Virus record (IMG/VR): IMGVR_UViG_3300037296_000055
Location: 18,505 to 82,504 of that record
Source: a virus
DNA length: 64,000 nucleotides
Reading direction: 5' to 3' (one strand)
Position 1 is the first letter of the stretch. Each line of letters opens with the position of its first letter. This document shows positions 39,147 through 55,691 of the stretch, in pieces. The notes below the pieces were generated by a model. The model made no database searches. It worked only from the letters and a program-made list of their open reading frames with translations, and had not been told where the DNA came from. Made by a program: the position numbers and the translations under genes.

Positions 39147-40205
39147 TTACCAGAGTTCCCCTTCAGGAAACTCTTCTTCAGGAGCAGGTGGCGCTTCACC
39201 ACGACGGCCACGTGCCATCGCTTCCACACGTTCTAGCGTAGCACGCCAGTCACGCGTCGCGTTGTCACGTAGCGCCTGGCGACCGCCCTCCGGCATGGGG
39301 GCAGCACCCGCCACCTCCATCTCAGGCTCAGGCGTGATAGCCCCAGGTCGGGCGTCCAGAGCTTCATCAGCAGCGACCCACTCAGCGCGGTCACCAAAGG
39401 CCCGCATGGTGTTGAGGCCGTAGCGAGGCATTGCTCCGGTCGTGGCGTTGTTGCGGCCACCCCCGTACGCTGCCATCATCTGATCCCTCTTCAGGTAACT
39501 TGAGCCCTTCTTCTTAGGAGCAGCTTCCATCGGTGGAGTCCGATCATACAGGAACGGACCCTCCGACTTTGCCAGCTGAGCCAGCCACAGCACCGGAAGC
39601 TCGTGCCGCCTCATGGCCTCCATCCAGTAGTCCACACCCCAAGGCATCTTCATGATGTTCACAGCATCAGTCAGAACGTTCAGGGTGGGGTCAGCCTCTG
39701 TCATGGCAACAGCGCCCTTCAGATCCTCGGCCTTGGCCCAGGGTTGAAGAACATCCTCCAGAAGAAGAGTGCGAGACAGAGCCACAACAAGCTCCTGGCA
39801 CATCACCTCCAGACGGGAATGGACCCGCATGGCGTTGGCCGTACTCATGGTCCACCCGCTGTCACGAGTGAAGTAGTTGTTCAATCGTTCCCAGCCATGC
39901 TGACCGGGGAAACAGCTCGACCAGTGGAGTGAGAAGTTCAGAATACGACCCAGGCTCAGGGAGCCGTGCTGCGCCAGGTCCCGAGCGGAGGAAGTCCGGG
40001 TGGACCGCCGCTGCTCAAAGCTCTCGTAGTACTCCCGCCCGGCATCCCGGACAGAAGCTTCAACAGACTCGGCCACGAAGGCACGAGCAGAGAGGAACTG
40101 ACGACGTAGCTGTGCCGGTGTTCGACCCTGTGACTCAGGTGGGATCTCTTCCAGGATTTCTCCCATAGCTCGGATAACAATGTCTGCGGCTGCGCGAGTA
40201 TCCAT
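39147..40205 (-). CDS. Hypothetical protein, 352 aa
   Basis: ATG 40205 follows an AAGGAA site. Mostly helical and soluble (for example QLRRQFLSARAFVAESVEAS), with a basic linker (APKKKGSSYLKRDQMM) and an acidic, Pro/Ala-rich C-terminal tail ending EEFPEGELW. No family recognised. It is the last gene of the operon that contains the amidoligase cluster and may be its substrate or a scaffold, but that is only context. Confidence 0.75.
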   Translation of the reverse strand: MDTRAAADIVIRAMGEILEEIPPESQGRTPAQLRRQFLSARAFVAESVEASVRDAGREYYESFEQRRSTRTSSARDLAQHGSLSLGRILNFSLHWSSCFPGQHGWERLNNYFTRDSGWTMSTANAMRVHSRLEVMCQELVVALSRTLLLEDVLQPWAKAEDLKGAVAMTEADPTLNVLTDAVNIMKMPWGVDYWMEAMRRHELPVLWLAQLAKSEGPFLYDRTPPMEAAPKKKGSSYLKRDQMMAAYGGGRNNATTGAMPRYGLNTMRAFGDRAEWVAADEALDARPGAITPEPEMEVAGAAPMPEGGRQALRDNATRDWRATLERVEAMARGRRGEAPPAPEEEFPEGELW

Positions 40206-40224
40206 AGTAGTGGTTCCTTCCTTC

Positions 40225-41061
40225 TTAGTACAATTGCGAGAGGGCCTCGACATAGTCAGTCAGTGTCGAACCCTCCATGCCAGGCGCGGTGTTCACTTCC
40301 AGGATGTACGCCTCTTGACGGCGCTCATTCCAGATAACGTCCACAGCACAGAAGTCCAGACCCGACGCTTCGAAAGCGCGGAGGGCCTGAGCACGGACAT
40401 CTGCGGGGACTTCCACCCCATCGTTACGTGCGAAGATGAAGCCGTTGGCATGGCTCCGGATCTCATAGTTTACAGTGCCCTCAGCCGCCCCGGTCTGGGT
40501 GGCCTTGCGCTGGGTTAGGAACTGGTTCACAGGGTTCCCATCAAGACGCTTGGCAAAGTGCAGACGGAACTCAGTCCGCTTACGAACATACTCCACCAGC
40601 AGAACGCCAGCACGCAGAGCACGGAGCTCCGCAATGTTGGACGCGTCATACCGGACGATACCCTCGCCGGAGTGGCCGTTCAGTTCGGTCCGGGCGAAGA
40701 TCACGTTGCACCGGTCATCACCGTTCTCGATCCAGCCTGCAGCCTCGGTCGGGCTTGTGGTGAAGCGTGGCATCCGAGGACGCTGGGTCTCTTCCACCGC
40801 CGCCATTGCCTGGAAGAACGACAGCTTGTTCGAAGCGGTCTCGACCCGCTCAGGAGCGTTCAGAACCCGGCCCGAGGAAGTCACGGCCTCAGGAAGACGA
40901 CGGCAGCCCCAGTTGATGACCGCGTGGTGCGCCTTACCGGCGAAGTTAGAACCCTCGCGACGGATGCGACGGATGCCTAGGGCCGAAGCCAGAGCTGCTG
41001 CGGAGTTCGAACCTGTGGAGTAAGGGTACAGGTACGCGATTGTTTTCTTAGCGGTTGCCAT
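40225..41061 (-). CDS. ATP-grasp ligase (RimK-like)
   Basis: A 278-aa enzyme; ATG 41061 lies eight bases after GGAG. ATP-grasp features are a nucleotide-binding region (VLNAPERVETASNKLSFFQA), the VEYVRKRTEFRLHF strand pair, and the C-terminal metal-binding FCAVDVIWNERRQEAYILEV followed by NTAPG (Asp, Glu, Asn ligands). These enzymes join a carboxylate to an amine at the cost of ATP, for example adding amino acids to a peptide end. It overlaps the amidoligase gene. Confidence 0.82.
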   Translation of the reverse strand: MATAKKTIAYLYPYSTGSNSAAALASALGIRRIRREGSNFAGKAHHAVINWGCRRLPEAVTSSGRVLNAPERVETASNKLSFFQAMAAVEETQRPRMPRFTTSPTEAAGWIENGDDRCNVIFARTELNGHSGEGIVRYDASNIAELRALRAGVLLVEYVRKRTEFRLHFAKRLDGNPVNQFLTQRKATQTGAAEGTVNYEIRSHANGFIFARNDGVEVPADVRAQALRAFEASGLDFCAVDVIWNERRQEAYILEVNTAPGMEGSTLTDYVEALSQLY

Positions 41062-41998
41062 TTGTGGTGCTCCAGTTTGTGTTGTATGCGAAGGATTGGA
41101 CGAGACGAACGCCACGGAAGACTTTCGACTCGATGTCAGGCGTATTCAGCTGAGCCAGGATGTTGGGCTCATCAGCAAAGATCTGCTGTAGAAGTTGGGT
41201 AGCACCACCACCCGAAATAGCGTTCAAGATCTCCTGTGGGTTCTCATAGCCCATAGCAGTCGTACGAACAGCGTTCAGAGCCCGCATCCAGTCAAGGATA
41301 GGCTGGGCAGCCTGGGGAGTACGCAGAGTACGGAACTCCAGGGTACCATACTTCCCAAGACTTGTCAGGTTCAAACCTGCGTAGCGAAGGTTGGAAGAGT
41401 CACCGACCCCACCCCAGCGACCGTTTCCACGGCGACCGCCTCCATTCAGGTTCCGGAGAGAGTTCTCCAGTTCCATGATAGGGTATTCTGCATCCACAAG
41501 GCGGAGACAGAACATGTTACCTGCACGTTCCTCACCGCACAGAGCATCGACCATCGCCTCTTCCAGGATCCAGAAGAGGAAAGCAAAGTTGACGGTCTCC
41601 AGCAGCGTACGGTCACGCTGGTTGATGTGGACGTGGACGCCAGCCCGCACCGAGTCCTTCACCCGGATGTAGGGGTTACGCTCGTTGACATGGCCGTCCA
41701 TCCAGTCATAGAGAGCTGTGACGTCTGCCAGAGCGCGGTCCATAGGGGTAGGACCTCGGAAGACGAATTCCACAGCATGGCCACGGAGAGAACCGTCAGA
41801 CTCGCTACGCCAGTTGGCGCAGTTTCCTGGACGGGTGCGGATACTTGCCCGATCACCTGCAACCCGCCCACGTGCGGGATCCCAAGTGTCGAATTCCATT
41901 TCCACTTCAACCCCCATCAGGGGATTGTTGACTGTTGCACCTGTTGTCGCCCCAGTGTCCGGAAGCGAAAGCAGTCTATCGATTGATGTTGACAGCAA
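41048..41998 (-). CDS. Amidoligase-family enzyme (glutamine synthetase-like fold)
   Basis: Resembles putative amidoligases: GVEVEMEFDTWD, SDGSLRGHAVEFVFRGP, VRAGVHVHINQRD with the paired His, and TLEFRTLRTPQ. These four blocks match the metal/ATP sites of carboxylate-amine ligases. The start is uncertain: I propose TTG at 41998 behind GGGGGA, giving 316 aa; the first ATG is 41917. It forms an amide bond on an unknown substrate, probably with the ATP-grasp and second ligase next door. Confidence 0.72.
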   Translation of the reverse strand: MLSTSIDRLLSLPDTGATTGATVNNPLMGVEVEMEFDTWDPARGRVAGDRASIRTRPGNCANWRSESDGSLRGHAVEFVFRGPTPMDRALADVTALYDWMDGHVNERNPYIRVKDSVRAGVHVHINQRDRTLLETVNFAFLFWILEEAMVDALCGEERAGNMFCLRLVDAEYPIMELENSLRNLNGGGRRGNGRWGGVGDSSNLRYAGLNLTSLGKYGTLEFRTLRTPQAAQPILDWMRALNAVRTTAMGYENPQEILNAISGGGATQLLQQIFADEPNILAQLNTPDIESKVFRGVRLVQSFAYNTNWSTTNGNR

Positions 41999-42590
41999 GG
42001 ATATTTTCCCCCATTTCTTGCAGAAGTTGTTCACGAAGCCAGCCAAAGCGCTCGAATAGCTCGATCGTGTCGTTATGAAGGATGCGACCAACGTGTTGGT
42101 TCCCCCGGTAGTAAACGCCGAACTCAGCATTCACAAAGAAGTTAGGCGAGATCGCCCGGAACGTTGCCCACTCCTCGAGAGCAGCCAGCGTCTGTTGTAG
42201 TGGGTCGTACTGCCCCCGGAGGGAACGGTTGACCTGCGCCCAGTGGTTCCGGATCCAATCCCCGCCGGAATTGAACCCCATCTGCCGGTCCGAAGTGCTC
42301 AGCGTGAACTGAGACGACCGCAGACCCTGACGATAGCCCTGTCCGCGAACGGCCATCCGGGTTGCGTAGAATGCAGAGCCCCGATCCGTGTTGACCGCGT
42401 TGAGACGAGGTGTTGCGAAGGCAAGATCCGCGAACGGAAGGTTTACCGGCATACCATCGAAAGGAGTAACAGAACAACGATCACCGCTGTAGCTGTCGGA
42501 GACATAAACGAGCTCCGCACGCCCAGGCGCAAACACATACGTGCTACGGATGCGCGAGTGCGCGTGATCAAAGTCGCCATCATACCGCAA
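41976..42590 (-). CDS. Hypothetical protein of the amidoligase cluster, 204 aa
   Basis: No ATG fits; a TTG at 42590 seven bases after AAGGGG is the likely start, overlapping the upstream gene by 11 bases. The protein is soluble and aromatic-rich, with AELVYVSDSYSGDRCSVTPF and a helical C-terminal half (FERFGWLREQLLQEMGEN). No family recognised. Overlaps with ligase genes on both sides suggest it is a partner subunit or the substrate-recognition protein. Confidence 0.65.
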   Translation of the reverse strand: MRYDGDFDHAHSRIRSTYVFAPGRAELVYVSDSYSGDRCSVTPFDGMPVNLPFADLAFATPRLNAVNTDRGSAFYATRMAVRGQGYRQGLRSSQFTLSTSDRQMGFNSGGDWIRNHWAQVNRSLRGQYDPLQQTLAALEEWATFRAISPNFFVNAEFGVYYRGNQHVGRILHNDTIELFERFGWLREQLLQEMGENILAVNINR

Positions 42591-43455
42591 CGTAGTTCCC
42601 CTTATTGTCCATGGTTTTGGTTGGCATGATGCCAACGTGTTGTTGCACAGCGTACCGTGCTGCGACAGAAGCCCGACGGTTGGTCCGAAGAGCAGTGCTC
42701 ATCGCGCCCCCGTTGGCCAGACGACGTTCGGCCCAGAACTTGCCAGCATGCAAGTCCCGGATAGCTCCCTGAACACCGTCGATAGCGGCCCGGATGAACC
42801 GTTCTTCAGACATCCAGGCAGACGACAGCGACCGATACTCCATCCCGTAGGACTTGGTCCGGAAGGCACCGGGAGCCCCATACAAGGTCCGGCGCATGTC
42901 GTCGTTATCCCACAGAGAAGACAGGGGAAGAATAGTACCGTCCAGCTGCTGTGACAGCAAACGGCATTGCATGAACAGATCAGGATCCGACATGTCAAAC
43001 TCAGAACCCCACCCGATATGGATGTGACCGCCGGAAGTCCGGAAGTAAGGGTTCTGCGGAGCGGGCCGGGGGTTGGCCTCCCCGCTGTAGGCGTTGAAGT
43101 CAGGCTCACAACCCAGGATCAGTTGTTCCGGGGGCTGGGCCTCGATGACCTCACGGTCGAACGTCACGGAAGGCTGGGCCTTCAGAATGTAACGATCGGT
43201 GTCGAAGAGCTGGCGGATACGGCCCATGACCGCATCAATGTTCGCCACGAACTCGTCGGTGGTACGTGCCGGTGGGATGCCGAATTCCAGCGCCATACCG
43301 TCGACCTGAACCATGCCACCTTCGTCGAAGATGTACGGCTCATCTTTGGTTCCGGGAACGATCCCATGAGCGCCGACGAAGCGCTCTGCATGAGTGTCCC
43401 AGATGAACAGCTCGGGGTCACAGCCAAAGACGTATTCGATGTTGTCAAGTTTCAT
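42580..43455 (-). CDS. phiEco32-like COOH-NH2 ligase
   Basis: A 291-aa protein with the marks of phage carboxylate-amine ligases of the phiEco32 type: EYVFGCDPELFIWD, GIVPGTKDEPY, QVDGMALEFGIPPA, ILGCEPDFNAYSG and RTSGGHIHIGW. Such enzymes have a glutamine synthetase-like fold and make an amide or peptide bond using ATP. It sits directly upstream of the first amidoligase partners in the same mRNA. Confidence 0.85.
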   Translation of the reverse strand: MKLDNIEYVFGCDPELFIWDTHAERFVGAHGIVPGTKDEPYIFDEGGMVQVDGMALEFGIPPARTTDEFVANIDAVMGRIRQLFDTDRYILKAQPSVTFDREVIEAQPPEQLILGCEPDFNAYSGEANPRPAPQNPYFRTSGGHIHIGWGSEFDMSDPDLFMQCRLLSQQLDGTILPLSSLWDNDDMRRTLYGAPGAFRTKSYGMEYRSLSSAWMSEERFIRAAIDGVQGAIRDLHAGKFWAERRLANGGAMSTALRTNRRASVAARYAVQQHVGIMPTKTMDNKGNYVAV

Positions 43456-43460
43456 GTTGG

Positions 43461-44573
43461 TTAGCCTTCAATCGTTGTTTTCAGAACGCAAGCAGTGCAG
43501 ATGGCGGTTTCTTGATTGATCAGGAACCGGAGGCTCCCGCTCTGAAACTCTTCGAAGGAGATGCCGTTGCTGCAGAAAGCACACTGACACCCTGTTTTTT
43601 GGTCGAACTCGCTCTTGCCGGAGAACTTGGGAGCAAACCAAGCATCACGAGACGACTTAGGATTAGGAACCCCCAGAACGGGAGACCGTACCGCCGGGGA
43701 CCCTTTCCCATGACGGTTCTGCGCGTAGTTAGGCCGGTTGTTGCCGTAACCGGTGTTGTTGCCGTACTGCCCACCGGGCCTATACGCCGAAGCACCCGTC
43801 CCATTGTTCCCAACCGTCGAGGTAAAAGGGGGGCGTTTCTCGAAGCTCGACACCTTGGCGGTCTTGAACACCTCAAGGCCCCGCTTGTTGAAGTCGAATT
43901 CCCACTGGGTAAAGGCCTCCACTTCCTTCGGCTCTTCCCAGTTAGCGCCACACTTCATGGCACCGACAGCGGCATAGAGGATCCAGGGCATGGAAGCAAA
44001 CATCAGAGTGGTGTGGCTCTTGTTCCACGTATACCACATCGGACGAGCCGAGTTCCGGCCAATAGTGAAGATCTTTGTCTTCGCGTTGTAGAAGACCAGA
44101 GCCATGTCCAGATCGACTTCTTTCTCGATCCGGGCCATGTCCCAGCCCTCGTTGAGCGCATGCATCACAGCCTGCGAGTCAACTTCATACTCGGCACCCT
44201 TAGGGAGAGCGCGAGGTGTGCCACGGGTTGTACCGTTGTGAACCCCGATCACGTCACCCTCAAGGAAGGGGTGAGCGTTCTTGGAGGTGTTAGCGCCGCG
44301 CGTCTTGGCACGGTTGTGGCCGACCAGGACCCGCAGGTTGTGGGCCTTGAACTCGCCGTCGATGTCCATCAGAGCGCGGGAACCAGGATTGGTCCACAGG
44401 TCCTGCGGGGAGCCAACGCCCTTGATGTAGCTGGCGTTGTTAGTCTGGTCAACCCAGAAGTAGCCGGTGGCGTCAGTACCCCGAGGATAGTCGAAGTATG
44501 ACAACCAGCGAAGAAGATTGCGCTCTTGAATGGAGAGCGAGGTTGTCGTCATGATGCCTACGATGCCACACAT
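43461..44573 (-). CDS. Class II glutamine amidotransferase
   Basis: A 370-aa Ntn-hydrolase. After Met removal the nucleophile is Cys2 (MCGIVGIM). Glutamine-site motifs are RGTDATGY, VLVGHNRAKTRG, NAHPFLEGD and IGVHNGTTRG. It frees ammonia from glutamine, or hydrolyses a gamma-glutamyl bond, for a ligase. The C-terminal 130 residues are unlike synthetase domains: an Asn/Gly/Tyr-rich linker, then a CQCAFCSNG...CTAC zinc-ribbon-like end. ATG overlaps the upstream TAA. Confidence 0.85.
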   Translation of the reverse strand: MCGIVGIMTTTSLSIQERNLLRWLSYFDYPRGTDATGYFWVDQTNNASYIKGVGSPQDLWTNPGSRALMDIDGEFKAHNLRVLVGHNRAKTRGANTSKNAHPFLEGDVIGVHNGTTRGTPRALPKGAEYEVDSQAVMHALNEGWDMARIEKEVDLDMALVFYNAKTKIFTIGRNSARPMWYTWNKSHTTLMFASMPWILYAAVGAMKCGANWEEPKEVEAFTQWEFDFNKRGLEVFKTAKVSSFEKRPPFTSTVGNNGTGASAYRPGGQYGNNTGYGNNRPNYAQNRHGKGSPAVRSPVLGVPNPKSSRDAWFAPKFSGKSEFDQKTGCQCAFCSNGISFEEFQSGSLRFLINQETAICTACVLKTTIEG

Positions 44574-45319
44574 TATTTGGCTTCCTTTTCAGTTACTTCG
44601 GAGGGGGTGGGTGTGGTCGACGCGGGTGTGGTCACCTCTGCCGTCGGTTCTTTGAGGATCTGGAAGTGAGTCAACATCTTCTGGAAGAAGTTGGCCCCCT
44701 CACTGTCCTCATCGAATTGGGTCACGTCAGGCATGGAGCCGAACGCGTTGTAGCGGGAAGAATAAGCCATCTCGACCTGACGAGACAGCCCTGCACAGCG
44801 CGAGTCCTGTTCCCGGATAGCGACCGGAGACCAAGACGGTGCGGTCTGACGACCGGAGATCACCTGCGAGTGTTCGGAGCGGAAGGAGAGTGTCAGGATC
44901 TGTTCCCGGAGCTCCGCTTCCTTCAGGGTGTTAGTGAACGCGTTGTGGTAGCTCGGAACGTTCAGGCGAGCCCGATCCAGGATCGGTACCACCTTCTGCA
45001 GAGAGCCGCCGGTCGCGACGGTCAGAAAGTTGAACCCATAGCCAAAGCCGACCATGGGCAGGTTGCGTAGATAGGCTTGACGGAAGACGGTGAACTGCTG
45101 GAAGTACTCCAACAGGTCCCCTTCGATCCGATCGTCACCTGCAGTCCACGAGGCCGCGACCTGGTGTGTGCTGTCAATGAAGGTGTCCAGGTGGTTCTCA
45201 CCGAACACCACAACATCGATGGTGGGGTCGAGGATCTTGTTGGTCGTGTCGTGTCCCCAGTTCTCGAACATGTCGACAAGCAACGGACGTGTATCGCACT
45301 GATTAATAAAGACTTTCAT
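44573..45319 (-). CDS. Class I glutamine amidotransferase homologue lacking the catalytic Cys
   Basis: A 248-aa protein. The nucleophile elbow of class I amidotransferases is recognisable as PMVGFGYGFNFLTVATGGSL, aligning with FLGVCRGGQLLNIIAGGSM of the active paralogue at 48083-48688. Gly93 occupies the Cys position. It is probably inactive as an amidase and may be a regulatory or binding subunit. The C-terminal tail is Thr/Pro/Glu-rich. It overlaps the next gene upstream by 17 bases. Confidence 0.68.
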   Translation of the reverse strand: MKVFINQCDTRPLLVDMFENWGHDTTNKILDPTIDVVVFGENHLDTFIDSTHQVAASWTAGDDRIEGDLLEYFQQFTVFRQAYLRNLPMVGFGYGFNFLTVATGGSLQKVVPILDRARLNVPSYHNAFTNTLKEAELREQILTLSFRSEHSQVISGRQTAPSWSPVAIREQDSRCAGLSRQVEMAYSSRYNAFGSMPDVTQFDEDSEGANFFQKMLTHFQILKEPTAEVTTPASTTPTPSEVTEKEAK

Positions 45320-46328
45320 TGATCAGGACCTCCCAGTTCAGTGATGCTGTTGATGTCTTCCCACGAGAGGAACCACCGGACTTTGGTTTGTCTTGGACGA
45401 GCGCACCCATGCTTATTGCGGGCCAGGGCAGAACACTTTTGTTCTTACCCCCCGGTTCGGGCATGTCGACCACTTCCGCCAGAACTGCTGCCGCTTCTGC
45501 ACGGCTCAACAAGAACGCTTCCGGTGTTGGCAACGGCACCTGAGGAATGAACAGCGTGTCCCCCTCACCGAAGTTCTTCAGTCCATCGTGGCGGGTAGAG
45601 TAGATCCGCGAGATGTCACCGGTGCTGGCGAAGGCGTAGTTGGAGGCCACCATCTTCTCGTGCAGGGTCGCGCCATCGTCAGGAAACACAAAGATGTTGT
45701 GACGGACGTTGTGCATGAGGTCCACAACACGGGCCCCATCCTGGAACGGAAGGTGACCGTTCACAAAGTTCCAGACGCTCTGAGGTCGGAGGAAGCGGTC
45801 CCCGTCCACGCCTGTCTTGGTCCAGGCCAGCAGCATCCAGGCTTCAAGAGGCTCAACCCCTTCAAGCTGTGACAGTGCGTCCCACGCGTAGATGAAGGAC
45901 GACTGAACCTGGAACATCGACCGGAAGATCTGTGCTGCCATGAAGAACTGCGGCCAGGGCATCGTGTTGATGGGACTGATCACCAGCCCGTGCTCCATGA
46001 TGAAGTCGACATCCTTGATGAAGAAGAAGCCCTCGGTCACCGGGTGGGAGACCAAGAACTGAAGGAAGCGACGTGTTGCTGCAGGGTTCAAGTCCGCAGC
46101 GAACCGGAAGCTTGTGGCGACCAGTGTGTCCGACGCAATCCGCGTCGAGATGTTGTACAGTGGACCGTGGCAGATCGAGTTAGTTGCCAGATTGGTGACA
46201 TGGATGCCAACGTCTGGGTTGCTACGGATCAGCTTGAGCATCACTTTGTTACTTGCTGTGAGCGTGGTGTTCACCTGAAAGGTTGTCAGATGGTCTTCCA
46301 CGTATTCACGTACTGCAGTTTCGTCCAT
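45303..46328 (-). CDS. Hypothetical protein, 341 aa
   Basis: A soluble protein of unknown family with many aromatic residues (FFFIKDVDFIMEHG, PWPQFFMAAQIFRSMF) and a basic Ser/Gly-rich linker near the end (DKPKSGGSSRGKTS). It overlaps the inactive amidotransferase gene. It may belong to the peptide-ligase system. A hairpin CCCCCA/TGGGGG lies just upstream at 46357-46375. Confidence 0.72.
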   Translation of the reverse strand: MDETAVREYVEDHLTTFQVNTTLTASNKVMLKLIRSNPDVGIHVTNLATNSICHGPLYNISTRIASDTLVATSFRFAADLNPAATRRFLQFLVSHPVTEGFFFIKDVDFIMEHGLVISPINTMPWPQFFMAAQIFRSMFQVQSSFIYAWDALSQLEGVEPLEAWMLLAWTKTGVDGDRFLRPQSVWNFVNGHLPFQDGARVVDLMHNVRHNIFVFPDDGATLHEKMVASNYAFASTGDISRIYSTRHDGLKNFGEGDTLFIPQVPLPTPEAFLLSRAEAAAVLAEVVDMPEPGGKNKSVLPWPAISMGALVQDKPKSGGSSRGKTSTASLNWEVLINESLY

Positions 46329-46389
46329 GTGTACCAGTTCCTATTTCCGAAATTTACCCCCAACATCTGTGGGGGCTTCATGATTGTGG

Positions 46390-46632
46390 TTACTTCAGCA
46401 CGGCACGAAGTGCGCCGTAATCATCAATTAGTTCTACGGTCTCGTCATAGCCACCGGAGGCCTCCAGGGTGGCCACTTGGTCAGCGGCCTTGTCCTGGAA
46501 CTCCTTAGTATAGTTCTTGATAGAAACGCTCTGTGGCGTCAGAGAGACGGTCTCAGAAGGACCCGTCCCGCAGCTTGTCAGAAACAGGCCGCTCATCATT
46601 GCGATAAGCAGCATCCCGTTTGAGTGCTTCAT
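46390..46632 (-). CDS. Putative o-spanin lipoprotein (Rz1-like)
   Basis: An 80-aa protein; ATG 46632 lies seven bases after GGAG inside the upstream gene. The signal peptide ends in lipobox LTSC, predicting an outer-membrane lipoprotein. The nested arrangement with the small membrane protein at 46553-46744 is the classic spanin arrangement; together they would fuse inner and outer membranes at lysis. It is less Pro-rich than lambda Rz1, so the call is tentative. Confidence 0.6.
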   Translation of the reverse strand: MKHSNGMLLIAMMSGLFLTSCGTGPSETVSLTPQSVSIKNYTKEFQDKAADQVATLEASGGYDETVELIDDYGALRAVLK

Positions 46633-46744
46633 CTTGTTTCTCCTCGTCAGCCTTGGCCGACTTGTTTTTGCTGTAGTTGTAGCCCGCATACCCTCCGAGG
46701 AGAGTTGCGAGGAGCCCCAGCAGGCCCACGATAGAGCTGATCAT
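46553..46744 (-). CDS. Putative i-spanin (Rz-like), 63 aa
   Basis: The N-terminal membrane helix (SIVGLLGLLATLLGGYAGY) is followed by a highly charged helical periplasmic tail (KSAKADEEKQDEALKRDAAY). The lipoprotein gene starts inside it in another frame. Short for an Rz protein. It is located 30 kb from the endolysin and on the other strand, so its timing may differ from the lysozyme. ATG overlaps the upstream stop. Confidence 0.58.
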   Translation of the reverse strand: MISSIVGLLGLLATLLGGYAGYNYSKNKSAKADEEKQDEALKRDAAYRNDERPVSDKLRDGSF

Positions 46745-46986
46745 GCCATGTAACGTACGGCAGGCGCGACCACGATAGGGCGCTTCACCGAAGCACTCCC
46801 CACCTGGATGTTAGATCGCGCAGTGATCGTTGTGATGTAGTCGGCAGGAACGTAGTAGACACGCTCCACAGGGCCGTCTTCGTAGACGACCTTGTTATAG
46901 TAGACCCCCAATTCCTTGAGGGTTCCGTTTCCGGCGATGGACTTCAGGCTTACGCAAGCGTCCAGGAAAAGGTCTTGCTGTTTCAT
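46741..46986 (-). CDS. Hypothetical protein, 81 aa
   Basis: ATG 46986 lies seven bases after GGAG, just past the nrdF stop. A small beta-rich protein (GVYYNKVVYEDGPVERVYYV) with no membrane segment or known domain. It sits between nrdF and the spanin pair. Confidence 0.68.
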   Translation of the reverse strand: MKQQDLFLDACVSLKSIAGNGTLKELGVYYNKVVYEDGPVERVYYVPADYITTITARSNIQVGSASVKRPIVVAPAVRYMA

Positions 46987-46987
46987 G

Positions 46988-47938
46988 TTAGAACTCCCAA
47001 TCATCGTCCTTTGTTTCAGTCTTAGTACCCATTACGTAGGATGAGCCGGAGCCTGAGAAGAAATCGTGGTTCTCGGAGTCAGGCGCTAAAGAGGCAAGGA
47101 TTGCCGGATTGACCTTGGTCATCTCAGGAGGGAACAGAGGTTCGTAGCCAAGGTTGGCCAGAGCCTTGTTTGCGTTGTAGTGGAGGAATGTCTTGACCTC
47201 GGATGTCATCCCGATGTCGTCATACAGTTCTTCCGTATAGCGAGACTCAATCTCGTAGAGATCTCCCAGAAGGGTGTAGGTGAAAGCTTTTACGCTCTCT
47301 TGCTCTTCCGTAGTAAGAAGGAGCTTACGATACTTCTGGTGTTGGTAGCCGACGTAGTACCCGTGGATTGACTCGTCCCGGATGATCAGTCGGATCAGGT
47401 CAGCCGTGTTGGTCAGGAGACCTCGCGACGACCAGTACATAGGAAGAAAGAAGCCCGAGTAAAAGGAGAAGGACTCCAGGAACACAGACGCTGCCATTGA
47501 CTCCGCCCAGTTACCGTTCTGGTAGATGTCGTTGATACGTGCTGCTTTCTCCTGAAGCCAACGGTTCTTCCCAGCCCACTGAAAGACTTCGTTGATCTCG
47601 TCCGTCGAACACAGCGTTGAGAACACTGAGCTGTAGGACTTCGCATGCACCGACTCCATGAAGCCGATGTTCGTGTAGATCGCCTGAGCGTGGGGAGTAC
47701 TCGGACAGCCCAGCAGCATCTGCAGACCGCCGGTGGCCTGGAGAGTGTCCAGTGCCGTGAGACCTGCGAAGGCCCTGATAGTTGCTTTCTTCTGTACGGG
47801 AGTCATCCGTTCCCAGGATTGCTGGTCAGCAGCGAGTGGGACTTTCTCAGGAAGCCAGAAGTTAGAGGTTAGACGGTTCCAGACTTCAAGATCTTTAGAG
47901 TCCTGAATTTGGTTCCAGTTGATTGGTTGTAGCGTCAT
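46988..47938 (-). CDS. nrdF: Ribonucleotide reductase class Ib beta subunit
   Basis: A 316-aa radical-bearing subunit. Metal ligands are all present: Asp64, Glu95, His98, Glu155, Glu189 and His192; the radical Tyr is Tyr102 (HAKSYSSVF). The C-terminal DDWEF tail binds the alpha subunit. It works with NrdE, NrdI and NrdH encoded in the same operon to make deoxynucleoside diphosphates for phage DNA. Separated from nrdE by seven small genes, unlike bacterial nrdHIEF operons. Confidence 0.93.
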   Translation of the reverse strand: MTLQPINWNQIQDSKDLEVWNRLTSNFWLPEKVPLAADQQSWERMTPVQKKATIRAFAGLTALDTLQATGGLQMLLGCPSTPHAQAIYTNIGFMESVHAKSYSSVFSTLCSTDEINEVFQWAGKNRWLQEKAARINDIYQNGNWAESMAASVFLESFSFYSGFFLPMYWSSRGLLTNTADLIRLIIRDESIHGYYVGYQHQKYRKLLLTTEEQESVKAFTYTLLGDLYEIESRYTEELYDDIGMTSEVKTFLHYNANKALANLGYEPLFPPEMTKVNPAILASLAPDSENHDFFSGSGSSYVMGTKTETKDDDWEF

Positions 47939-48095
47939 GCCAGGGACAATCCTTGTTTACAGTTGACTGAACGTCATTGAATAGTGGCTTCATCATTGCA
48001 GCGCAGCTATGATGTTCCTTGTAGTGATCGTGATACGGACAGGCCGCACAGCGATGGACCCTATGGGTCAGTAGCCCCCGTTCTACGCGAACCAT
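47895..48095 (-). CDS. Small Cys/His-rich protein, 66 aa
   Basis: ATG 48095 overlaps the upstream gene by 13 bases and its end overlaps nrdF by 44 bases. It fills an otherwise empty gap in a compact operon. The sequence CAACPYHDHYKEHHSC and a later DCPWHD give a plausible zinc site. Function unknown; the frame may instead be chance. Confidence 0.45.
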   Translation of the reverse strand: MVRVERGLLTHRVHRCAACPYHDHYKEHHSCAAMMKPLFNDVQSTVNKDCPWHDATTNQLEPNSGL

Positions 48096-48688
48096 TCGTC
48101 GATCATGCGGAAGTACAGCCGACGGGTCGGAGCCTCCTGCGTGACGAATTCGGGGTGCGGTTGGAAGCAGAGGAATTGTTCCTCAGCGTAGAAGATTGCT
48201 TCCGGGTCTTGTTGTGGCTCATTCTCGACCACACCAACATTCTCGCGCCGGGTGGACAAGCCGTCAGCGAAGGCCAACAGGTCAGCCCCCTCCGACGCAG
48301 GGATCATCATCTGGTGGTGAACCGAGTTGACCCGGTGTACCGAGCCGTCAGGAACATACGTGATGTCGTGGTACCCACGGTGCCCTGAGATGTCCTGCCA
48401 CATGGAGCCGCCCGCAATGATGTTCAGGAGCTGGCCACCACGACATACCCCCAGGAACTTCTTCTTCCGGCGGAAGGCTTTGATCAGGGCCAACTCACGT
48501 GCATCACGCTCGTCAGTCCAGTAGGACGTTGGGTGAGGCTCCAGACCGTAGAGCTTAGGGTTGAGGTCGGAACCCCCTGTCAGCTGGATGTAGTCAGCTT
48601 CCTCCGGACCCCCCACAACAGTCCAGCCCTCCTCCGTGAACATCTCCGGATAGGTAGGACCCGCTGACGCGATGTAAACTGTCTTCAT
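48083..48688 (-). CDS. Class I glutamine amidotransferase / gamma-glutamyl hydrolase-like (C26)
   Basis: A 201-aa protein with an intact triad: Cys82 in FLGVCRGGQLL, His178 and Glu180 in CFQPHPE. The DYIQLTGGSDLNP block and VHRVNSVHHQM are typical of the peptidase C26 branch, which cleaves gamma-glutamyl bonds. It is a paralogue of the Cys-less protein at 44573-45319. It may recycle or trim gamma-glutamyl products of the ligase cluster. ATG at 48688. Confidence 0.82.
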   Translation of the reverse strand: MKTVYIASAGPTYPEMFTEEGWTVVGGPEEADYIQLTGGSDLNPKLYGLEPHPTSYWTDERDARELALIKAFRRKKKFLGVCRGGQLLNIIAGGSMWQDISGHRGYHDITYVPDGSVHRVNSVHHQMMIPASEGADLLAFADGLSTRRENVGVVENEPQQDPEAIFYAEEQFLCFQPHPEFVTQEAPTRRLYFRMIDEWFA

Positions 48689-49154
48689 AAATCACCTGTT
48701 TGCTTTGGATGTTTGCGGCTTGCATAAGCTTGGATGAACGTGTCCAACGCTTTCCATAGTGCGCAAACTGGTCCTTCGGGGGCTGAACGTGTACGATACG
48801 CTTCACCCTTGCCTGGATCAGTCGAGCAGTGCACTTGGCGCAGGGGAACCGGGTGATGTACACCGTTGCCCCCTCCACCGAAGTGTTAGCATTCAGCATG
48901 GCGTTCTCTTCCGCGTGGATGACCACATCGTCTTTGAACGACTTGTCGAGGTATAGTTTGGGATCATCAGGGATGCCCCGAGGGAACCCGTTGTAGCCCA
49001 GACTCAGGACTTGGTTCCGATCATTAGTGATCACACAGCCCACCTTACGATGAGGGTCCTTGGACCACTGTGCGACCATAGAGGCCATGGCCAGGAACCG
49101 AAGCTCCCAGCCTGTTGCCACGCCTACACTACGCTGCCGCGTTGTCGACTTCAT
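48594..49154 (-). CDS. dCMP deaminase
   Basis: A 186-aa zinc deaminase. The HAEENAML motif gives the His ligand and catalytic Glu, and FPCAKCTARLI gives the two Cys. It converts dCMP to dUMP, feeding dTTP synthesis along with the ribonucleotide reductase. ATG 49154 (or 49160) lies after AAAGAG and overlaps the upstream gene. The Gly/Ser/Cys-rich C-terminus overlaps the amidotransferase gene by 95 bases, an unusually long overlap. Confidence 0.85.
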   Translation of the reverse strand: MKSTTRQRSVGVATGWELRFLAMASMVAQWSKDPHRKVGCVITNDRNQVLSLGYNGFPRGIPDDPKLYLDKSFKDDVVIHAEENAMLNANTSVEGATVYITRFPCAKCTARLIQARVKRIVHVQPPKDQFAHYGKRWTRSSKLMQAANIQSKQVIYEDSLHRVSGSYLSGDVHGGGLDCCGGSGGS

Positions 49155-49827
49155 CAGCATCTCTTTCTGGATAAGTACGGACCAGCAGGTTCAGGAGCGA
49201 ACCAGTACGGGAGCTCACGACCGCCCCGATCCACTGGAAGCCCAGCGCCTTCACAGCCGCACCCGACTGGTGGTACTGGTGACCGGCAAGCACAATCTCT
49301 TGCATCTCGCCCTCAGCAATCTCCAGTTCCGCCAGAGGGCGGCTGGACCGACGAGCCTGCCGACCGAACGCTTGTTCGACAGTCATGCCCACGCGCTCCG
49401 CATGCACACGCATACGCTCCTGGTTGGCCGCATCGCTCGCTCGCTGTTGCACCATGGCACGCTCAGAAACCCAGCCAATGCCGAAGACCGACATGTTCTC
49501 GTGGCCGGAGTAGGTTAGAGTCCGAGGGCCCATGTTGGTGACGTAGTCCGGCTCCCGGTATGCGGAGATGTCGGGTTCAGCGTGTGAGGGGCTGAGCAGG
49601 AACAGAGTGCCCCCTTGGTGGTTGGGGTACCAGATGGACTTGAAGCCCGGTTCCGTATTGCGCGGTTCGAAGTAGGCCGGGTCATAACGATCCCCGACGT
49701 TGGTGAAGCGACGGATGCGGCCCGACCCTGCGTTGCGATACCGGTAAGGGTACTTCAGCGCGTTCTGGTTGAAGGGCTCAGCACCCTGTTGGTAGCCACA
49801 GCAATAACCGTCATGGTGAGTATACAT
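49129..49827 (-). CDS. CCG-motif family protein 1, 232 aa
   Basis: First described member of a family of four tandem paralogues. It begins MYTHHDGYCCGYQQG. Shared blocks are a QGGTLFLLS strand (where others have GGQ.W or GGFIW), TYSGHENMSVFGIG, and a C-terminal half with MQEIVLAGHQYHQSGAAVKA then LGFQW. It differs from the others by a helical, Arg-rich insertion (RMRVHAERVGMTVEQAFGRQ). Function unknown. Confidence 0.75.
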   Translation of the reverse strand: MYTHHDGYCCGYQQGAEPFNQNALKYPYRYRNAGSGRIRRFTNVGDRYDPAYFEPRNTEPGFKSIWYPNHQGGTLFLLSPSHAEPDISAYREPDYVTNMGPRTLTYSGHENMSVFGIGWVSERAMVQQRASDAANQERMRVHAERVGMTVEQAFGRQARRSSRPLAELEIAEGEMQEIVLAGHQYHQSGAAVKALGFQWIGAVVSSRTGSLLNLLVRTYPERDADEVDNAAA

Positions 49828-49841
49828 AGTATGTCCTTTAT

Positions 49842-50471
49842 TCAGTGGTTCTTGAGGAAGAGGAATAGTGTATTACCGGTCGACGCTGACACGGCAGTAC
49901 TTGCAAGAGACCAGCCAAGCTGGAACATAGTTGCACCGTAGTCATAGACTTGGTGCGATGATAGAACGACCTCAAGTACCTGGTCAGGGGGAAGGAGGTT
50001 GGCCTCAATGAGAGGCCCTTGCGTATAGTCTCCATCAACGTCGTCCTCGCGAACGATGCCATGGAAGCAGATGCCGCTGAACTCCTCGTAGTAGAGCTTC
50101 GGAGTCGGGTGAGCAAGGATATCCTTCTGATACCCCGCCAACCGCTCACCATGCTTAGCCAGCGAGTCCACTTTCGTGTACCAGAGCTGACCACCGTACT
50201 TCGGCGAATAGAGGTTCCAGTATCCCTTAGAAGCCAGGATGGGCTGAAACGCTGCGGCCATCTCAGGAGTGACGTCCTGGATCCGCTGGAGCCACTGGCC
50301 CCCTTCATAACCATCACCGTCCCAGGCGTTGTTGCGCTCGTTACGGCCAAGGGTCAGGACCCGTTTCAGGTCATGGTTGTCCACGACTTTCCACCACTGC
50401 ATGTAACCGCAGCAGTCTCCGTCATGCCCTTTGTAATGGTTGGGCTCTTTACCCTTCACGTACTTCGGCAT
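49842..50471 (-). CDS. CCG-motif family protein 2, 209 aa
   Basis: ATG 50471 is chosen over a TTG ten codons earlier. It starts with HYKGHDGDCCGYMQWW. It shares SKGYWNLYSPKYGGQLWYTK, SGICFHGIV, and the C-terminal LEVVLSSHQVYDYGATMFQL then GWS with its neighbours. It overlaps the upstream paralogue by 23 bases. Function unknown. Confidence 0.75.
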   Translation of the reverse strand: MPKYVKGKEPNHYKGHDGDCCGYMQWWKVVDNHDLKRVLTLGRNERNNAWDGDGYEGGQWLQRIQDVTPEMAAAFQPILASKGYWNLYSPKYGGQLWYTKVDSLAKHGERLAGYQKDILAHPTPKLYYEEFSGICFHGIVREDDVDGDYTQGPLIEANLLPPDQVLEVVLSSHQVYDYGATMFQLGWSLASTAVSASTGNTLFLFLKNH

Positions 50472-51069
50472 TGGGACCAATCCCCAGAGTCCAGAGTGCA
50501 AGGTGCTGAGAGCTGGTCCGTGATCGGACGGTGGTCTGGTGTGTCCAGCCCAGCTTCGCCATGGCAGCTCCCATCGTGTATTGTTGGGCGTTGTTCAGGA
50601 TAATCTCCTTCACTTTACCCGCCGGAAGCTGGAACCTACTCAGGCTTCGGGTCCCACCCCGCATGATGCCCTGAAGCGCCAGGCCATTTTCCTCGGAGTA
50701 GGTGAGCTGCTCCGGGCTTCTGATCACCAGCTCCTTGAAGTGACCGGAGTCCTGTACAGCCTCGTCGAAACTGTCGTGGAAGGTTTTCCGACCGAACATG
50801 CTACGACGCTTACGATGGAACCAGATCTGGCCACCGCTCAGCTCCGTATGCAGAGTCCAGAACCGACGCCGGCTCAGTTCTTCCAGCAGCTCGGGGATGT
50901 CCTTCCGGGAGTTGATCGCTGGCATCCGGAACAGGAAGGAGCCCTGGTGCGTGTTGTTGCAAGCGCTTTCGAGGTACGACCAGTCGTGGCTTCCAAGTTG
51001 GAGCACCGAGTTCTGCAACTGCCAGAAGCCACAGCAGCCCCCGTCATGGATCATGCGACGAATGCTCAT
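50449..51069 (-). CDS. CCG-motif family protein 3, 206 aa
   Basis: Starts MSIRRMIHDGGCCGFWQLQ. Shared blocks are RRFWTLHTELSGGQIWFHRK, LTYSEENGLALQGIMRG and VKEIILNNAQQYTMGAAMAK then LGW. The closest relative is member 4 (both end with an ALWTLG or TLWTLG segment). ATG overlaps the upstream stop (ATGA). Function unknown. Confidence 0.76.
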   Translation of the reverse strand: MSIRRMIHDGGCCGFWQLQNSVLQLGSHDWSYLESACNNTHQGSFLFRMPAINSRKDIPELLEELSRRRFWTLHTELSGGQIWFHRKRRSMFGRKTFHDSFDEAVQDSGHFKELVIRSPEQLTYSEENGLALQGIMRGGTRSLSRFQLPAGKVKEIILNNAQQYTMGAAMAKLGWTHQTTVRSRTSSQHLALWTLGIGPNAEVREG

Positions 51070-51665
51070 TCCTCCACCCCCAAAGTCCAGAGGGTAATGA
51101 ACCGGTTAGAGCTTGGCGACCGGGTAGTGACCTGGTGTTTCCAACCCAGCTCGGTCAGGGGCTTGGCCAGCTTGAGGTACTGACGTTGGTTCAGCACGAT
51201 CTCCCGCACCCCGTCCTTCGGAACCTCGAAGTTGGTCAGCTGCCGTGAGGACGGAGTACCGTACACCTGGTCGTGGATACCCGACAGGCTGATACCACGC
51301 TCAAGCATGAAGCACGGTTGGGCGGCCGGTTTACACTCATCAGGCGAAGCATTCCGCTCAAATTGGTCCAGGCCTGCTTGAGGGGTGTTACCCTTAGGCT
51401 CCAGGCGGATCTTGGCGAACCAGATGAAGCCCCCCTGCTTGGTGGTGGCCTTTGCCCAGTACCCCTCCGCCTTCAAACGGGGCAGGAGGTCGTCAACGTT
51501 TGTCCGCTGGTTCACGTTGTTCAGGCGGGCCAGATAGCTGGTGTGGAGGTAGGTACGGAAGAACCCGTCCAGCTGGCTCCAGTCAGCATCCCGTGTGAGG
51601 GAGCCGCTGAAGGGGAGGAAGCCGCAGCACCCCCCTTCGTGTGGTTTGAGGACTAGATTACTCAT
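51066..51665 (-). CDS. CCG-motif family protein 4, 199 aa
   Basis: First of the four in transcription order. It starts MSNLVLKPHEGGCCGFLPF. Shared blocks are EGYWAKATTKQGGFIWFAK, LERGISLSGIHDQ and VREIVLNQRQYLKLAKPLTE then LGW. The near-invariant HxGxCCG N-terminus in all four suggests a metal site or redox pair. Function unknown. Confidence 0.76.
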   Translation of the reverse strand: MSNLVLKPHEGGCCGFLPFSGSLTRDADWSQLDGFFRTYLHTSYLARLNNVNQRTNVDDLLPRLKAEGYWAKATTKQGGFIWFAKIRLEPKGNTPQAGLDQFERNASPDECKPAAQPCFMLERGISLSGIHDQVYGTPSSRQLTNFEVPKDGVREIVLNQRQYLKLAKPLTELGWKHQVTTRSPSSNRFITLWTLGVEE

Positions 51666-51739
51666 GGTGAGTCTCCATATGGTGGTTTCGGTTTGTTAGG
51701 TCGAAGAGTGGCATGGAGGGGCCACTGACATAAGTAGTA

Positions 51740-52018
51740 TCAGACTTGCACGAAGCCCTGATCAAGGAGGCTCTTCAGAACCCCCCGGCAGTAGTTGCTG
51801 TGGACCTCGTTACGGCGGTCCGGCAGCAGGTTATAGGTGGAGCCGCTCAGGGTCTTGACCTGTAGCGAGTCCGGCCCGGTGAACCCTTGCAGCGTTGTGG
51901 AGAACCGGTAGCTCTCGTCAGGCCAGCTGCTGAACAGGTGAAGGTCCTTGGTCACGGGGTTTTCGAGGATGACCCATCCGGCGGGCGTGAGGCCTACTTC
52001 GGGAGCAACACTAAACAT
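51740..52018 (-). CDS. Hypothetical protein, 92 aa
   Basis: ATG 52018 with AAGGAA upstream, just after nrdE. Soluble, beta-rich N-terminal half (GWVILENPVTKDLHLFSSW) and a helical C-terminal end. No domain recognised. Confidence 0.7.
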   Translation of the reverse strand: MFSVAPEVGLTPAGWVILENPVTKDLHLFSSWPDESYRFSTTLQGFTGPDSLQVKTLSGSTYNLLPDRRNEVHSNYCRGVLKSLLDQGFVQV

Positions 52019-52035
52019 GTTATTGTTTCCTTAGG

Positions 52036-54153
52036 TTAGAGAGTACAGCTTACGCAGCCTTCCGTCTCGACCCCGTCAAGGATCTGTTGACGCAGACGTA
52101 CGTAGTAGATAGTCTTGAGCCCTGCTTTCCAAGCGTAGATCTGCGCTCGGTTCACGTCGCGGGTTGTTGCTGAGTCCTTGAAGAACAGGGTACAGCTCAG
52201 GCCTTGGTCAACGTGTTCTGTTGCGGCAGCGTACACTCGGATCAGAGCCTCAGGGCCGATCTCGTAAGCATCCTTGTAGAACTCCTGGTTCTCGTTGGTC
52301 AGGTAAGGTGCAGGGTAGTAGATACGACCCAGCCGTCCTTCTTTACGGACTTCGACCTTGGCAACAATAGGATGGATGCTGGAAGTGGAGTTGTTGATGT
52401 AGCTGATCGAGCCTGTCGGTGGAACGGCCTGAAGGTTCTGATTGAACAGACCGTGCTTCATGACCTTAGACTTTAGGTCTTTCCACTCCTCGACTGTTGG
52501 TAGCCCGATACCGAACTTGGAGAAGAGTTCTTGAACCGTTGGAGTTGTCGGTGTCCACTTTCGTTCAGTGTACTTGTTGAAGAACTCACCGGTGGCATAG
52601 GTGCTTCGCTCGAAACCGTCAAACGTCGCGTTACGTTCGCGAGCAAGCCCGCAACTCGCAGCAAGAGCATGGTAAGTAATCGCTGCGAAGTAAGCCGAAG
52701 TAAAGTCCACGGCCTCGGGAGAGTCATAGTGAATTCCTTCTCGTGCAAGGAACCCGTGAAGGTTCATTTGACCCAGGCCAATGGCCCGAGACTTATCGTT
52801 ACCGTTCTCGATGCTAGGTACTGCCCCGATGTGGGACATCTCAGACACGGCTGTCAGAGCTCGGATGGACACGCTCACCGTCTCGCCCAGATCACCATAG
52901 TCCATCGCCTTCGCAATGTTCAGGGAACCCAGGTTACAACTGATGTCCTTACCGACCTCGAGGTAGTTGGCCGCCGCATCGTACGTGGAAGCCTGAGACA
53001 CTTGGAGGATCTCAGAACAAAGGTTAGACATTGAGATACGACCGTCAATCGGGTTGGCCCGGTTCACAGTGTCCTCGAACATGATGTAGGGGTAGCCGGA
53101 CTCAAACTGGAGCTCAGCAAGAGTCTGGAAGAGCTTACGAGCATTCACCTTGGTCTTGGTGATCGACTCGTCCTCAACCATCTCCCAATACTTCTCAGTG
53201 ACGGAGATCTCTGACATGGCCACACCGTACACCCGCTCCACATCGTAGGGCGAGAACAGGTACATGTCCAGGTTGTCACGTGCCAGCTCGAACGCGATGT
53301 CAGGAACAACAACGCCCAGGCTCAGAGTCTTGATCCGTACTTTCTCATCAGCATTCTCCCTCTTGGTATCAAGGAAGCGCAGGATGTCAGGGTGGTTCAT
53401 GTGCAGGTAGACCGCTCCGGCCCCCTGTCGTTGACCCAACTGGTTAGCGTAGGAGAACGCATCCTCCAACATCTTCATCACGGGAAACACCCCCGATGCG
53501 GCCTTCTGTACCTTCTTGATAGGGGCGTTGAACTCCCGAAGGTTTGTCAGACACAGGCCCACACCACCGCCACGCTTGGACAGTTGCAGGGACGAGGTCA
53601 CAGCACGACTGATAGACTCCATGTTGTCCTCAACACGAAGTAGGAAGCAAGAAACCAGCTCACCCCGTTGCATACGCCCTGCATTCAGGAACGTTGGAGT
53701 GGCCGGTTGAAAGGTACCGAGCATGATCTGGTCCACCACAGAGCAAGCAAGCTCCATGTTTCCCTGGCCCAACATCAAGCCCACAGCAACCACACGGTCC
53801 TCAAAACGTTCAAGGAAACGTTCTCCGTCGAAGGTTTTCAGGGTGTAGCTGTTGTAATATTTGTAGGCTCCGAGAAAGGACTCGAAGCGGAACTTGTGAG
53901 CATACGCTTGCTTATACAGGTCTTTAATCTGGTCAGGCGGATACTGGTCAAATACCGAGGGGTCATAGTATCCCTCAGCGATCAGATACTCCAGCTTCTC
54001 CTCGATCGAGTGGAAGAAGACGGTGTTCTGGTTTACGAAGTCCAGGAAGTAGCGACGGGTGGCATCGTGGTCAGCGTCGAGCTGCATCTTACCATCAGCG
54101 TCGTAGAGGTTCAGGAGCGCATTCAGCGCGTGGTAGTCAAGTTGTTCAGTCAA
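52036..54153 (-). CDS. nrdE: Ribonucleotide reductase class Ib alpha subunit
   Basis: A 705-aa catalytic subunit. It has family blocks such as [37 protein letters not shown] and NLCSEIL, and the redox pair Cys700/Cys703 in GCVSC at the C-terminus, re-reduced by NrdH. There is no N-terminal ATP cone, as expected for class Ib. It overlaps nrdI by eight bases and reduces ribonucleoside diphosphates for phage replication. Confidence 0.94.
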
Positions 54154-54526
54154 GGGCTTCTATTCTTTCTCTGGTTTTAGTGACGTCGTCGTCGTTACCG
54201 TCCAGCTCCACACAGTGTAGTAGTGGAACGTTACACTTCCGAGCGACCATCTTTGCACCCAGGCAAAAGGTCTCTCCAAAGTTACGATTACCGGTGCCGA
54301 TAACACCGACGATGTCTTCATGATTAGTATTGATGAAGGCTCTTACAGCGCGGGGCAGAGCTCCACGTCCTTCACCATCTGCATAGGTAGGGCATACAAG
54401 AACAAAGGGCTCACCCTTGGTGTGCTCTGCGTGCCTCACGTCTAGTGCCGGGTACCCCAGCTTTTGTACAAACCTTGCGGTGTTTTGTGTTGCCGAAGAG
54501 AAGTAGTAGACTTTTTTCGTATCCAC
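54146..54526 (-). CDS. nrdI: NrdI flavodoxin
   Basis: A 126-aa flavodoxin-like protein that supplies oxidant to build the manganese-tyrosyl radical in NrdF. The FMN phosphate loop is [12 protein letters not shown]; later blocks are [19 protein letters not shown] and [17 protein letters not shown] take the GTG at 54526, seven bases after AAGGA, rather than a longer frame without a site. Confidence 0.88.
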
Positions 54527-54606
54527 AGGCACTTCCTTGTTATGGCGTAGTAGCCTAGCCCGATCCCCAGAAGGGACAGGGCCAGCGGAAATAGTTGTTG
54601 AAGCAT
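54442..54606 (-). CDS. Small membrane protein, 54 aa
   Basis: ATG 54606 directly follows the upstream TAG. The N-terminal membrane helix (LFPLALSLLGIGLGYYAI) is followed by a very basic tail ([18 protein letters not shown]). It overlaps the nrdI start by 85 bases in another frame. The fourth of four tiny membrane ORFs in a row; accepted because of the chained starts and stops. Confidence 0.5.
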   Translation of the reverse strand: MLQQLFPLALSLLGIGLGYYAITRKCLWIRKKSTTSLRQHKTPQGLYKSWGTRH

Positions 54607-54714
54607 CTAGCCCCGGAGGCAACCTCTCAAGAAGTCAGAGAAGCTTGCAGCGAGCAAGACAAGAAAGGCGATTGCACAAACGACAAACGCCCCGAAGAGT
54701 ATGGTGGCCAACAT
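54607..54714 (-). CDS. Small membrane protein, 35 aa
   Basis: A 35-codon ORF whose ATG overlaps the upstream TGA. Nearly all of it is one hydrophobic helix (TILFGAFVVCAIAFLVLLAA) followed by SFSDFLRGCLRG. Function unknown. Confidence 0.52.
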   Translation of the reverse strand: MLATILFGAFVVCAIAFLVLLAASFSDFLRGCLRG

Positions 54715-54806
54715 CAGTGGTCCCCCCAGTGTGTGAGTGCGAAGACAACGAGCGCTATGAAGCACAAGAGGACCCAGAAGAACGCTACGGTAGGGTCATT
54801 GGCCAT
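54714..54806 (-). CDS. Small membrane protein, 30 aa
   Basis: A 30-codon ORF starting inside the end of the preceding one. A polar start (MANDPTV) leads into a membrane helix (AFFWVLLCFIALVVFAL) and a short tail HWGDH. Function unknown; it may tune a membrane complex or be a decoy peptide. Confidence 0.52.
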   Translation of the reverse strand: MANDPTVAFFWVLLCFIALVVFALTHWGDH

Positions 54807-54903
54807 AGTAGTCGTCATCATCATTCGTCCATTGGTGATAGAGTTCAGTGGCAAGCAGGAACACAATGAACACGATGCAGATCCAGCCAAAGATTTCGAT
54901 CAT
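54796..54903 (-). CDS. Small membrane protein, 35 aa
   Basis: ATG 54903 overlaps the upstream TGA by one base. An N-terminal helix (IFGWICIVFIVFLLATEL) is followed by an acidic tail (TNDDDDYYGQ). First of the chain of four overlapping membrane ORFs. Confidence 0.55.
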   Translation of the reverse strand: MIEIFGWICIVFIVFLLATELYHQWTNDDDDYYGQ

Positions 54904-55316
54904 CAGATCTGCTCCCAGAAGGCTGTGTGTTGAGCAGAAGGAAGCAACCGCTCCTGACCTCCCAGCATCATCAGCGTTGAGAAGTCCAGCATAGCGGTAC
55001 TGTACTCCCAGTACCAGTTGTCAACCCGGAGCTCTCCAAAGTTGTAGACCACGTTAGTCCCGACCTGACGATCACCCCGCATAACCGGAGTCATGAGCGT
55101 GAACTCAGGAATGGAAGAATGATCGTAGAAGTCTTCCGGCACCTCGTACACCAGCAGGGAGTAAGCATCACCCCCGACCGGATACGTAAGTGTGTTCAGG
55201 AACATGACCGTTCTGCCAGGAAGGATGACGAAGGCAGTCTCAGCCAGGGAAGACCAGTGAGTCCAGTCCTCCACATTCGCTATGTTAGTCCATACGTCGT
55301 CGTCTCGTAAGTGCAT
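54903..55316 (-). CDS. Hypothetical protein, 137 aa
   Basis: A soluble, acidic, aromatic-rich protein between nrdH and the small membrane ORFs. Beta-like segments include ETAFVILPGRTVMFLNTLTY and DAYSLLVYEVPEDFYD. No family recognised. It starts three bases after the nrdH stop. Confidence 0.72.
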   Translation of the reverse strand: MHLRDDDVWTNIANVEDWTHWSSLAETAFVILPGRTVMFLNTLTYPVGGDAYSLLVYEVPEDFYDHSSIPEFTLMTPVMRGDRQVGTNVVYNFGELRVDNWYWEYSTAMLDFSTLMMLGGQERLLPSAQHTAFWEQI

Positions 55317-55319
55317 TGG

Positions 55320-55550
55320 TTATCCTTTTCCAAGGACCTCAATCAGGTCCGGGCGAAAGCCTGACCAGGAAGTACCATCCTCCAGCTCAACCACAGGGGC
55401 AGAACGGAAGCCAAGGGACTGGACCCGGCTCATTGCTTCAGCATTCGTGGTCAGGTCAACGGACACGTAGTCCAGACCATGGCGAGTTAGTGCCGCCTTG
55501 GTAGCATCGCATTGCACACAAGAGGGCTTGATGTAGAGGGTGAGTGGCAT
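55320..55550 (-). CDS. nrdH: NrdH glutaredoxin-like redoxin
   Basis: A 76-aa redoxin; ATG 55550 lies eight bases after AAGGA. The active site is CVQC (KPSCVQCDATK), and the thioredoxin-reductase-type C-terminal block is WSGFRPDLI. It reduces the NrdE C-terminal cysteines. It is the first gene behind the leftward T7-like motif core at 55663-55677, with a 106-base leader. Confidence 0.9.
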   Translation of the reverse strand: MPLTLYIKPSCVQCDATKAALTRHGLDYVSVDLTTNAEAMSRVQSLGFRSAPVVELEDGTSWSGFRPDLIEVLGKG

Positions 55551-55579
55551 AGAAGTAGTCCTTAGAGTTGTAGTATGAT

Positions 55580-55642
55580 GGAGGAAGAAGGATGAATGAC
55601 GTGGTTCCACCCTATAACCGGGGGGCGGGCAGGGGGGAGCAT
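55580..55642 (-). other. Leader block repeated from 23.3 kb
   Basis: Read leftward the leader contains ATGCTCCCCCCTGCCC, then CCGGTT, then TCATTCATCCTTC and TTCCTCC, the same blocks in the same order as 23336-23404. This extends the similarity between the two control regions well past the promoter motif. Confidence 0.5.
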
Positions 55643-55655
55643 CGTCCTCCCTCTT

Positions 55656-55677: not shown

Positions 55678-55691
55678 GGGGCCCTATGTTT

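Follow-up and report, generated by a model that had tools for sequence, protein, structure and literature searches.

Many genes in phage accessory regions are orphans, so that homology gives no clue to what they do. We analysed a window of 64,000 nucleotides (positions 18,505 to 82,504 of IMG/VR record IMGVR_UViG_3300037296_000055) in which four neighbouring genes on the minus strand encode proteins with an N-terminal HxGxCCG motif, and asked whether these genes are homologous and what their products may do. The genes were numbered 1 to 4 (A to D) in transcription order: paralogue 1 (51066..51665; 199 aa, pI 8.9, HEGGCCGF), paralogue 2 (50449..51069; 206 aa, pI 9.6, HDGGCCGF), paralogue 3 (49842..50471; 209 aa, pI 5.7, HDGDCCGY) and paralogue 4 (49129..49827; 232 aa, pI 6.5, HDGYCCGY).

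An earlier note, made from the sequence alone, had placed four paralogues at 49129-51665 and named alignment scores no better than those of shuffled sequences, outside the N-terminal motif, as the result that would speak against their kinship. We removed HxGxCCG and all residues before it and calculated Smith-Waterman z-scores against 1000 shuffles. The results showed that every pair beat at least 999 of the 1000 shuffles, with no more than one shuffle equalling the real score in any pair, indicating that the four genes are homologous; the coordinates given were also right. The z-scores were 40.6 for pair 1-2, 20.2 for 2-3 and 14.1 for 1-3, and those with paralogue 4, the most divergent member, were 9.2 (2-4), 8.6 (3-4) and 4.9 (1-4). 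Paralogues 1 and 2 were closest to each other (33% identity). Similarity followed gene order (1-2 > 2-3 > 3-4) and was weakest between the two genes farthest apart, 1 and 4, as would be expected from serial tandem duplication within one phage lineage. The shared blocks described by the earlier note, GG.(I/L)(W/F) and E(I/V)(I/V)L..xQ...LG(W/F), were present, although the fourth gene has F where W had been given. Great divergence beyond a small core was borne out both by these pairwise scores and by the five-way alignment described below. The arms race with host targets suggested by the earlier note is a hypothesis only: since the searches of other phages returned no orthologue, rate and age of divergence cannot be separated in this family.

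The four genes are tightly packed. A ribosome-binding-like GGAG lies upstream of paralogue 1, whose stop codon overlaps the start of paralogue 2 at an ATGA junction. Paralogue 3 starts 23 nt within paralogue 2; its listed ORF begins at a TTG at 50501, deeper inside paralogue 2, and the ATG at 50471 is therefore most simply taken as its start. The 3' end of paralogue 4 overlaps the start of a dCMP deaminase gene. The overlaps 1/2, 2/3 and 4/deaminase make co-translation of the array genes likely. Codon use on the coding strand fitted that of the phage's other genes and codon use on the antisense strand did not. No promoter or repeat common to the array was found near it.

The record (82,504 bases) carries an exact direct repeat of 127 bases at its two ends (window 63874-64000 and L002:1-127, where L002 denotes the part of the record outside the window); a length of 127 matches a k-mer setting common among assemblers. 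The repeat suggests that the assembly is complete and closes into a circle of about 82.4 kb. The phage RNA polymerase was nearest to that of Bacteriophage DSS3_VP1 (42% identity), whose record is classed in Naomviridae. Judged by its sequence, the source is a bacterial virus akin to marine Roseobacter phages. Structural and replication genes were common to 41 IMG/VR sister contigs, most of them fragments, and to the DSS3 phages. In the 39-58 kb segment of the window, BLASTP matches to the sister phages were confined to the deaminase, a 23% match of the reductase large subunit and one 73-aa ORF. This near-absence of matches marks an accessory region (window 39000-58600), with the array inside it and away from the structural genes.

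All neighbours with coordinates given here lie on the minus strand. Upstream of the array are genes for an Rv2179c-like exonuclease, glutaredoxin, NrdI and the ribonucleotide reductase large subunit (nrdE, 52036..54153; 66-70% identical to many IMG/VR proteins), followed by a 92-aa ORF with no assigned function between nrdE and paralogue 1 (51740..52018). Downstream are dCMP/cytidine deaminase (48594..49160; PF00383), a Peptidase_C26 or class-I glutamine amidotransferase (48083..48688; PF07722) and the reductase small chain (nrdF, 46988..47938; PF00268). An amide-chemistry block follows at 39147..46328, with unassigned genes interspersed among those for an ATP-grasp protein (phrog_2599), an amidoligase (PF12224), a phiEco32-like COOH-NH2 ligase (PF14395) and a GATase_6 protein (PF13522).

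The position of the array between the genes of the large subunit, itself preceded by NrdI and glutaredoxin, and the small subunit, together with the conserved HxxxCC, raises the question of whether its products assist the phage ribonucleotide reductase as auxiliary factors, perhaps by handling thiols or metal. We consider this very doubtful: no array copy was found near 80 viral loci with close relatives of the nrdE product, the probable fifth gene sits at another place in the record, and a single enzyme would hardly call for four divergent copies. As the neighbouring genes are metabolic, the array genes could equally encode auxiliary metabolic proteins, which speaks against the host-interaction reading favoured below.

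We scanned the rest of the 82.5-kb record and found one further CCG protein near a start codon, encoded on the minus strand at L002:12902-13588 (MANHIAGCCGV...ALGF...SHNTLQLL). A profile of the four copies gave a collinear full-length alignment with this protein, scoring 17.4, whereas the best of 99 shuffles reached 11.3. When 981 other ORFs from this phage and from DSS3_VP1 were ranked, it came first, by a narrow lead of 24.3 to 23.7 over a spurious runner-up. Plain pairwise Smith-Waterman comparison with the four copies was not significant. These findings make it likely, though not proven, that the fifth gene belongs to the family. It adjoins a GGACT-family (gamma-glutamyl cyclotransferase-like) gene and a thioredoxin-like gene.

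Five diverged orphan copies in one genome form a natural alignment, in which the few residues that matter stand out: H, C, C, G and LG. The five-way alignment kept these residues, one hairpin G and some Leu. The earlier note had suggested metal binding by the His and the two Cys, and the idea is plausible, since all three belong to the small set of positions that line up across the five proteins, though this segment was modelled with low confidence (see below). The probable, dispersed fifth copy also bears on the note's proposal that the four products are subunits of a hetero-oligomer, a reading under which all four would be needed in a fixed ratio. Tandem order, gene overlaps, a shared scaffold and contrasting pI (8.9/9.6 vs 5.7/6.5) are in keeping with such a complex, but it appears quite unlikely, given that one copy is encoded apart from the others and that the graded divergence along the array is what plain serial duplication would produce.

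Profile searches with the array proteins yielded nothing credible in Pfam, PHROGs or NCBIfam and no match to virion families; PADLOC defence-system profiles did not match, and a PDB sequence search gave no credible relative. A match of PF09989 to paralogue 4 (E 0.11) failed the cut-off and was rejected. With the array family and the fifth gene, tblastn against 50,697 phages and against plasmids returned no matches or only chance ones. Scans of IMG/VR and GTDB with the family revealed no relatives, all HDGxCCG(F/Y) pattern matches looking like chance readings, and two further scans of IMG/VR, which started from neighbouring genes, found no array copy nearby. The profile of the four copies was also empty against the 41 sister-phage contigs and against 397 genomes from a single bacterial family, to which a Paracoccaceae MAG had led. 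These searches depend on conserved short peptides or recognisable profiles, and remote relatives may escape them; records close to this one may also be absent from the collections. The searches, which included the profile searches proposed by the earlier note, gave a probable fifth member in the same record but no relatives elsewhere, and the best reading of the sequence comparisons is a lineage-specific family without a relative in the collections searched.

Structure prediction of single proteins, also proposed in the earlier note, was carried out for paralogues 2 and 3 with AlphaFold2. The results showed the same two-lobed alpha/beta topology in both (beta-alpha-beta-alpha-beta-beta, helix, beta-alpha-beta-beta), but both models were weak, with a mean pLDDT of 65 and pTM of 0.71 for paralogue 2 and 56 and 0.57 for paralogue 3. 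Both were built from the same four sequences only and are thus not fully independent, and the HxxxCCG segment had low confidence in each. The topology hinted that one lobe might be a duplicate of the other, but profile-profile comparison did not support this, 96 of 100 shuffles scoring better. Neither model had a Foldseek match at E<=0.001. With VIA-align, the first lobe matched SirA/TusA, LarB, IF3-C-like and methyltransferase domains and the second matched C-terminal halves of GNAT proteins, all with Z <=5.5; at values below 8 a match may reflect no more than a common arrangement.

The N lobe loosely resembles TusA/SirA and IF3-C in its beta-alpha-beta-alpha-beta-beta order, with weak matches to 3hz7 (Z 4.5 and 4.9 over 69-70 of 74 residues). 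Unlike TusA/SirA, however, the array model places the two Cys before the first strand: residue 1 of 3hz7 aligns to residue 23, after C20-C21. The TusA/SirA profile (PF01206) gave no match to the array family at E<=10 while ringing in 13 of 14 controls. A sulphur carrier of the TusA type was rejected, as the Cys position does not fit and no CPxP-like motif follows the first strand.

The C lobe is predicted to share the strand-helix-strand-strand order of the GNAT C-terminal half, with LG(W/F) closing the helix, and for each of the two models GNAT chains recurred among its matches (Z about 4-4.8, e.g. Z 4.7 over 46-47 residues). The C lobe was the only part to match GNAT proteins consistently, the N-terminal half being different. 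GNAT proteins are known from phages, among them Rac of the phiKMV group (PMC7824862). The array proteins may be divergent, GNAT-derived acyl- or aminoacyl-transferase-like proteins that, with the ATP-grasp, amidoligase, COOH-NH2-ligase and glutamine-amidotransferase set, modify a protein or metabolite. The amide-ligase block lies downstream on the same strand, the Peptidase_C26 gene is just beyond the dCMP deaminase gene, and the fifth gene abuts the gamma-glutamyl cyclotransferase-like gene; in addition, amide-ligase sets with ATP-grasp and COOH-NH2 ligases have been linked with GNAT genes (Burroughs, Zhang and Aravind, PMC4431377, citing Iyer et al. 2009). We nevertheless judge a GNAT origin unlikely. 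The acetyl-CoA loop [QR]xxGx[GA] after strand 4 was absent from paralogues 1-3 and the fifth protein, paralogue 4 having only a chance-like match near its N-terminus. The Acetyltransf_1 profile (PF00583) found nothing in the array family at E<=10 and rang in 14 of 14 control genomes, and Z-scores of this size may reflect a common arrangement only.

We favour, with a probability of roughly 0.4, the reading that the array proteins are intracellular, non-virion host-interaction factors in which a shared site is kept, the remainder has diverged and each copy has its own partner. The proteins would be made alongside the phage's nucleotide-metabolism genes and would combine a common two-lobed alpha/beta scaffold with a single conserved N-terminal H-x3-C-C-G site. 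We take this site as the functional or folding core because it is the sole strongly kept segment; it would most likely bind metal or provide a reactive thiol, and it may supply chemistry or fold stability, with the variable parts giving specificity. The variable remainder and the pI spread of 5.7-9.6 suggest different partners, so that each copy would most likely target a different host or phage partner in host takeover or counter-defence. It is this suggestion, together with the place of the genes in a non-structural accessory operon, that leads us to prefer host interaction, while the low confidence of the structure models (mean pLDDT 65 and 56) weighs against it.

Phage-specific arrays of diverged orphan paralogues are a general kind. 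The genes of the present array are likewise small, adjacent, same-strand, lineage-specific and placed in an accessory region, but the family differs in having no detected relative, a strongly kept HxxxCCG core and a probable fifth copy that is dispersed. A more specific proposal is a phage-specific family with a new fold combination, whose N-terminal HxxxCCG forms a catalytic or metal centre and whose copies, duplicated within one phage lineage, diversified so that one chemistry could be turned on several targets in the host or its defences; this we hold to be improbable. The five copies offer a testable case of a His/Cys site with variable surfaces and, if they hit different host targets, a ready set for target discovery.

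Two further features of the accessory region were observed. Relatives of the COOH-NH2 ligase in the amide-chemistry block occur in 317 phage records, many of them Pseudomonas and Escherichia phages. Between this block and nrdF, at window positions 46390-46744 on the minus strand, two small overlapping ORFs in different frames had no Pfam match but resemble an Rz/Rz1 spanin pair, one having a membrane-like N-terminus and the other a lipobox-like LTSCG.
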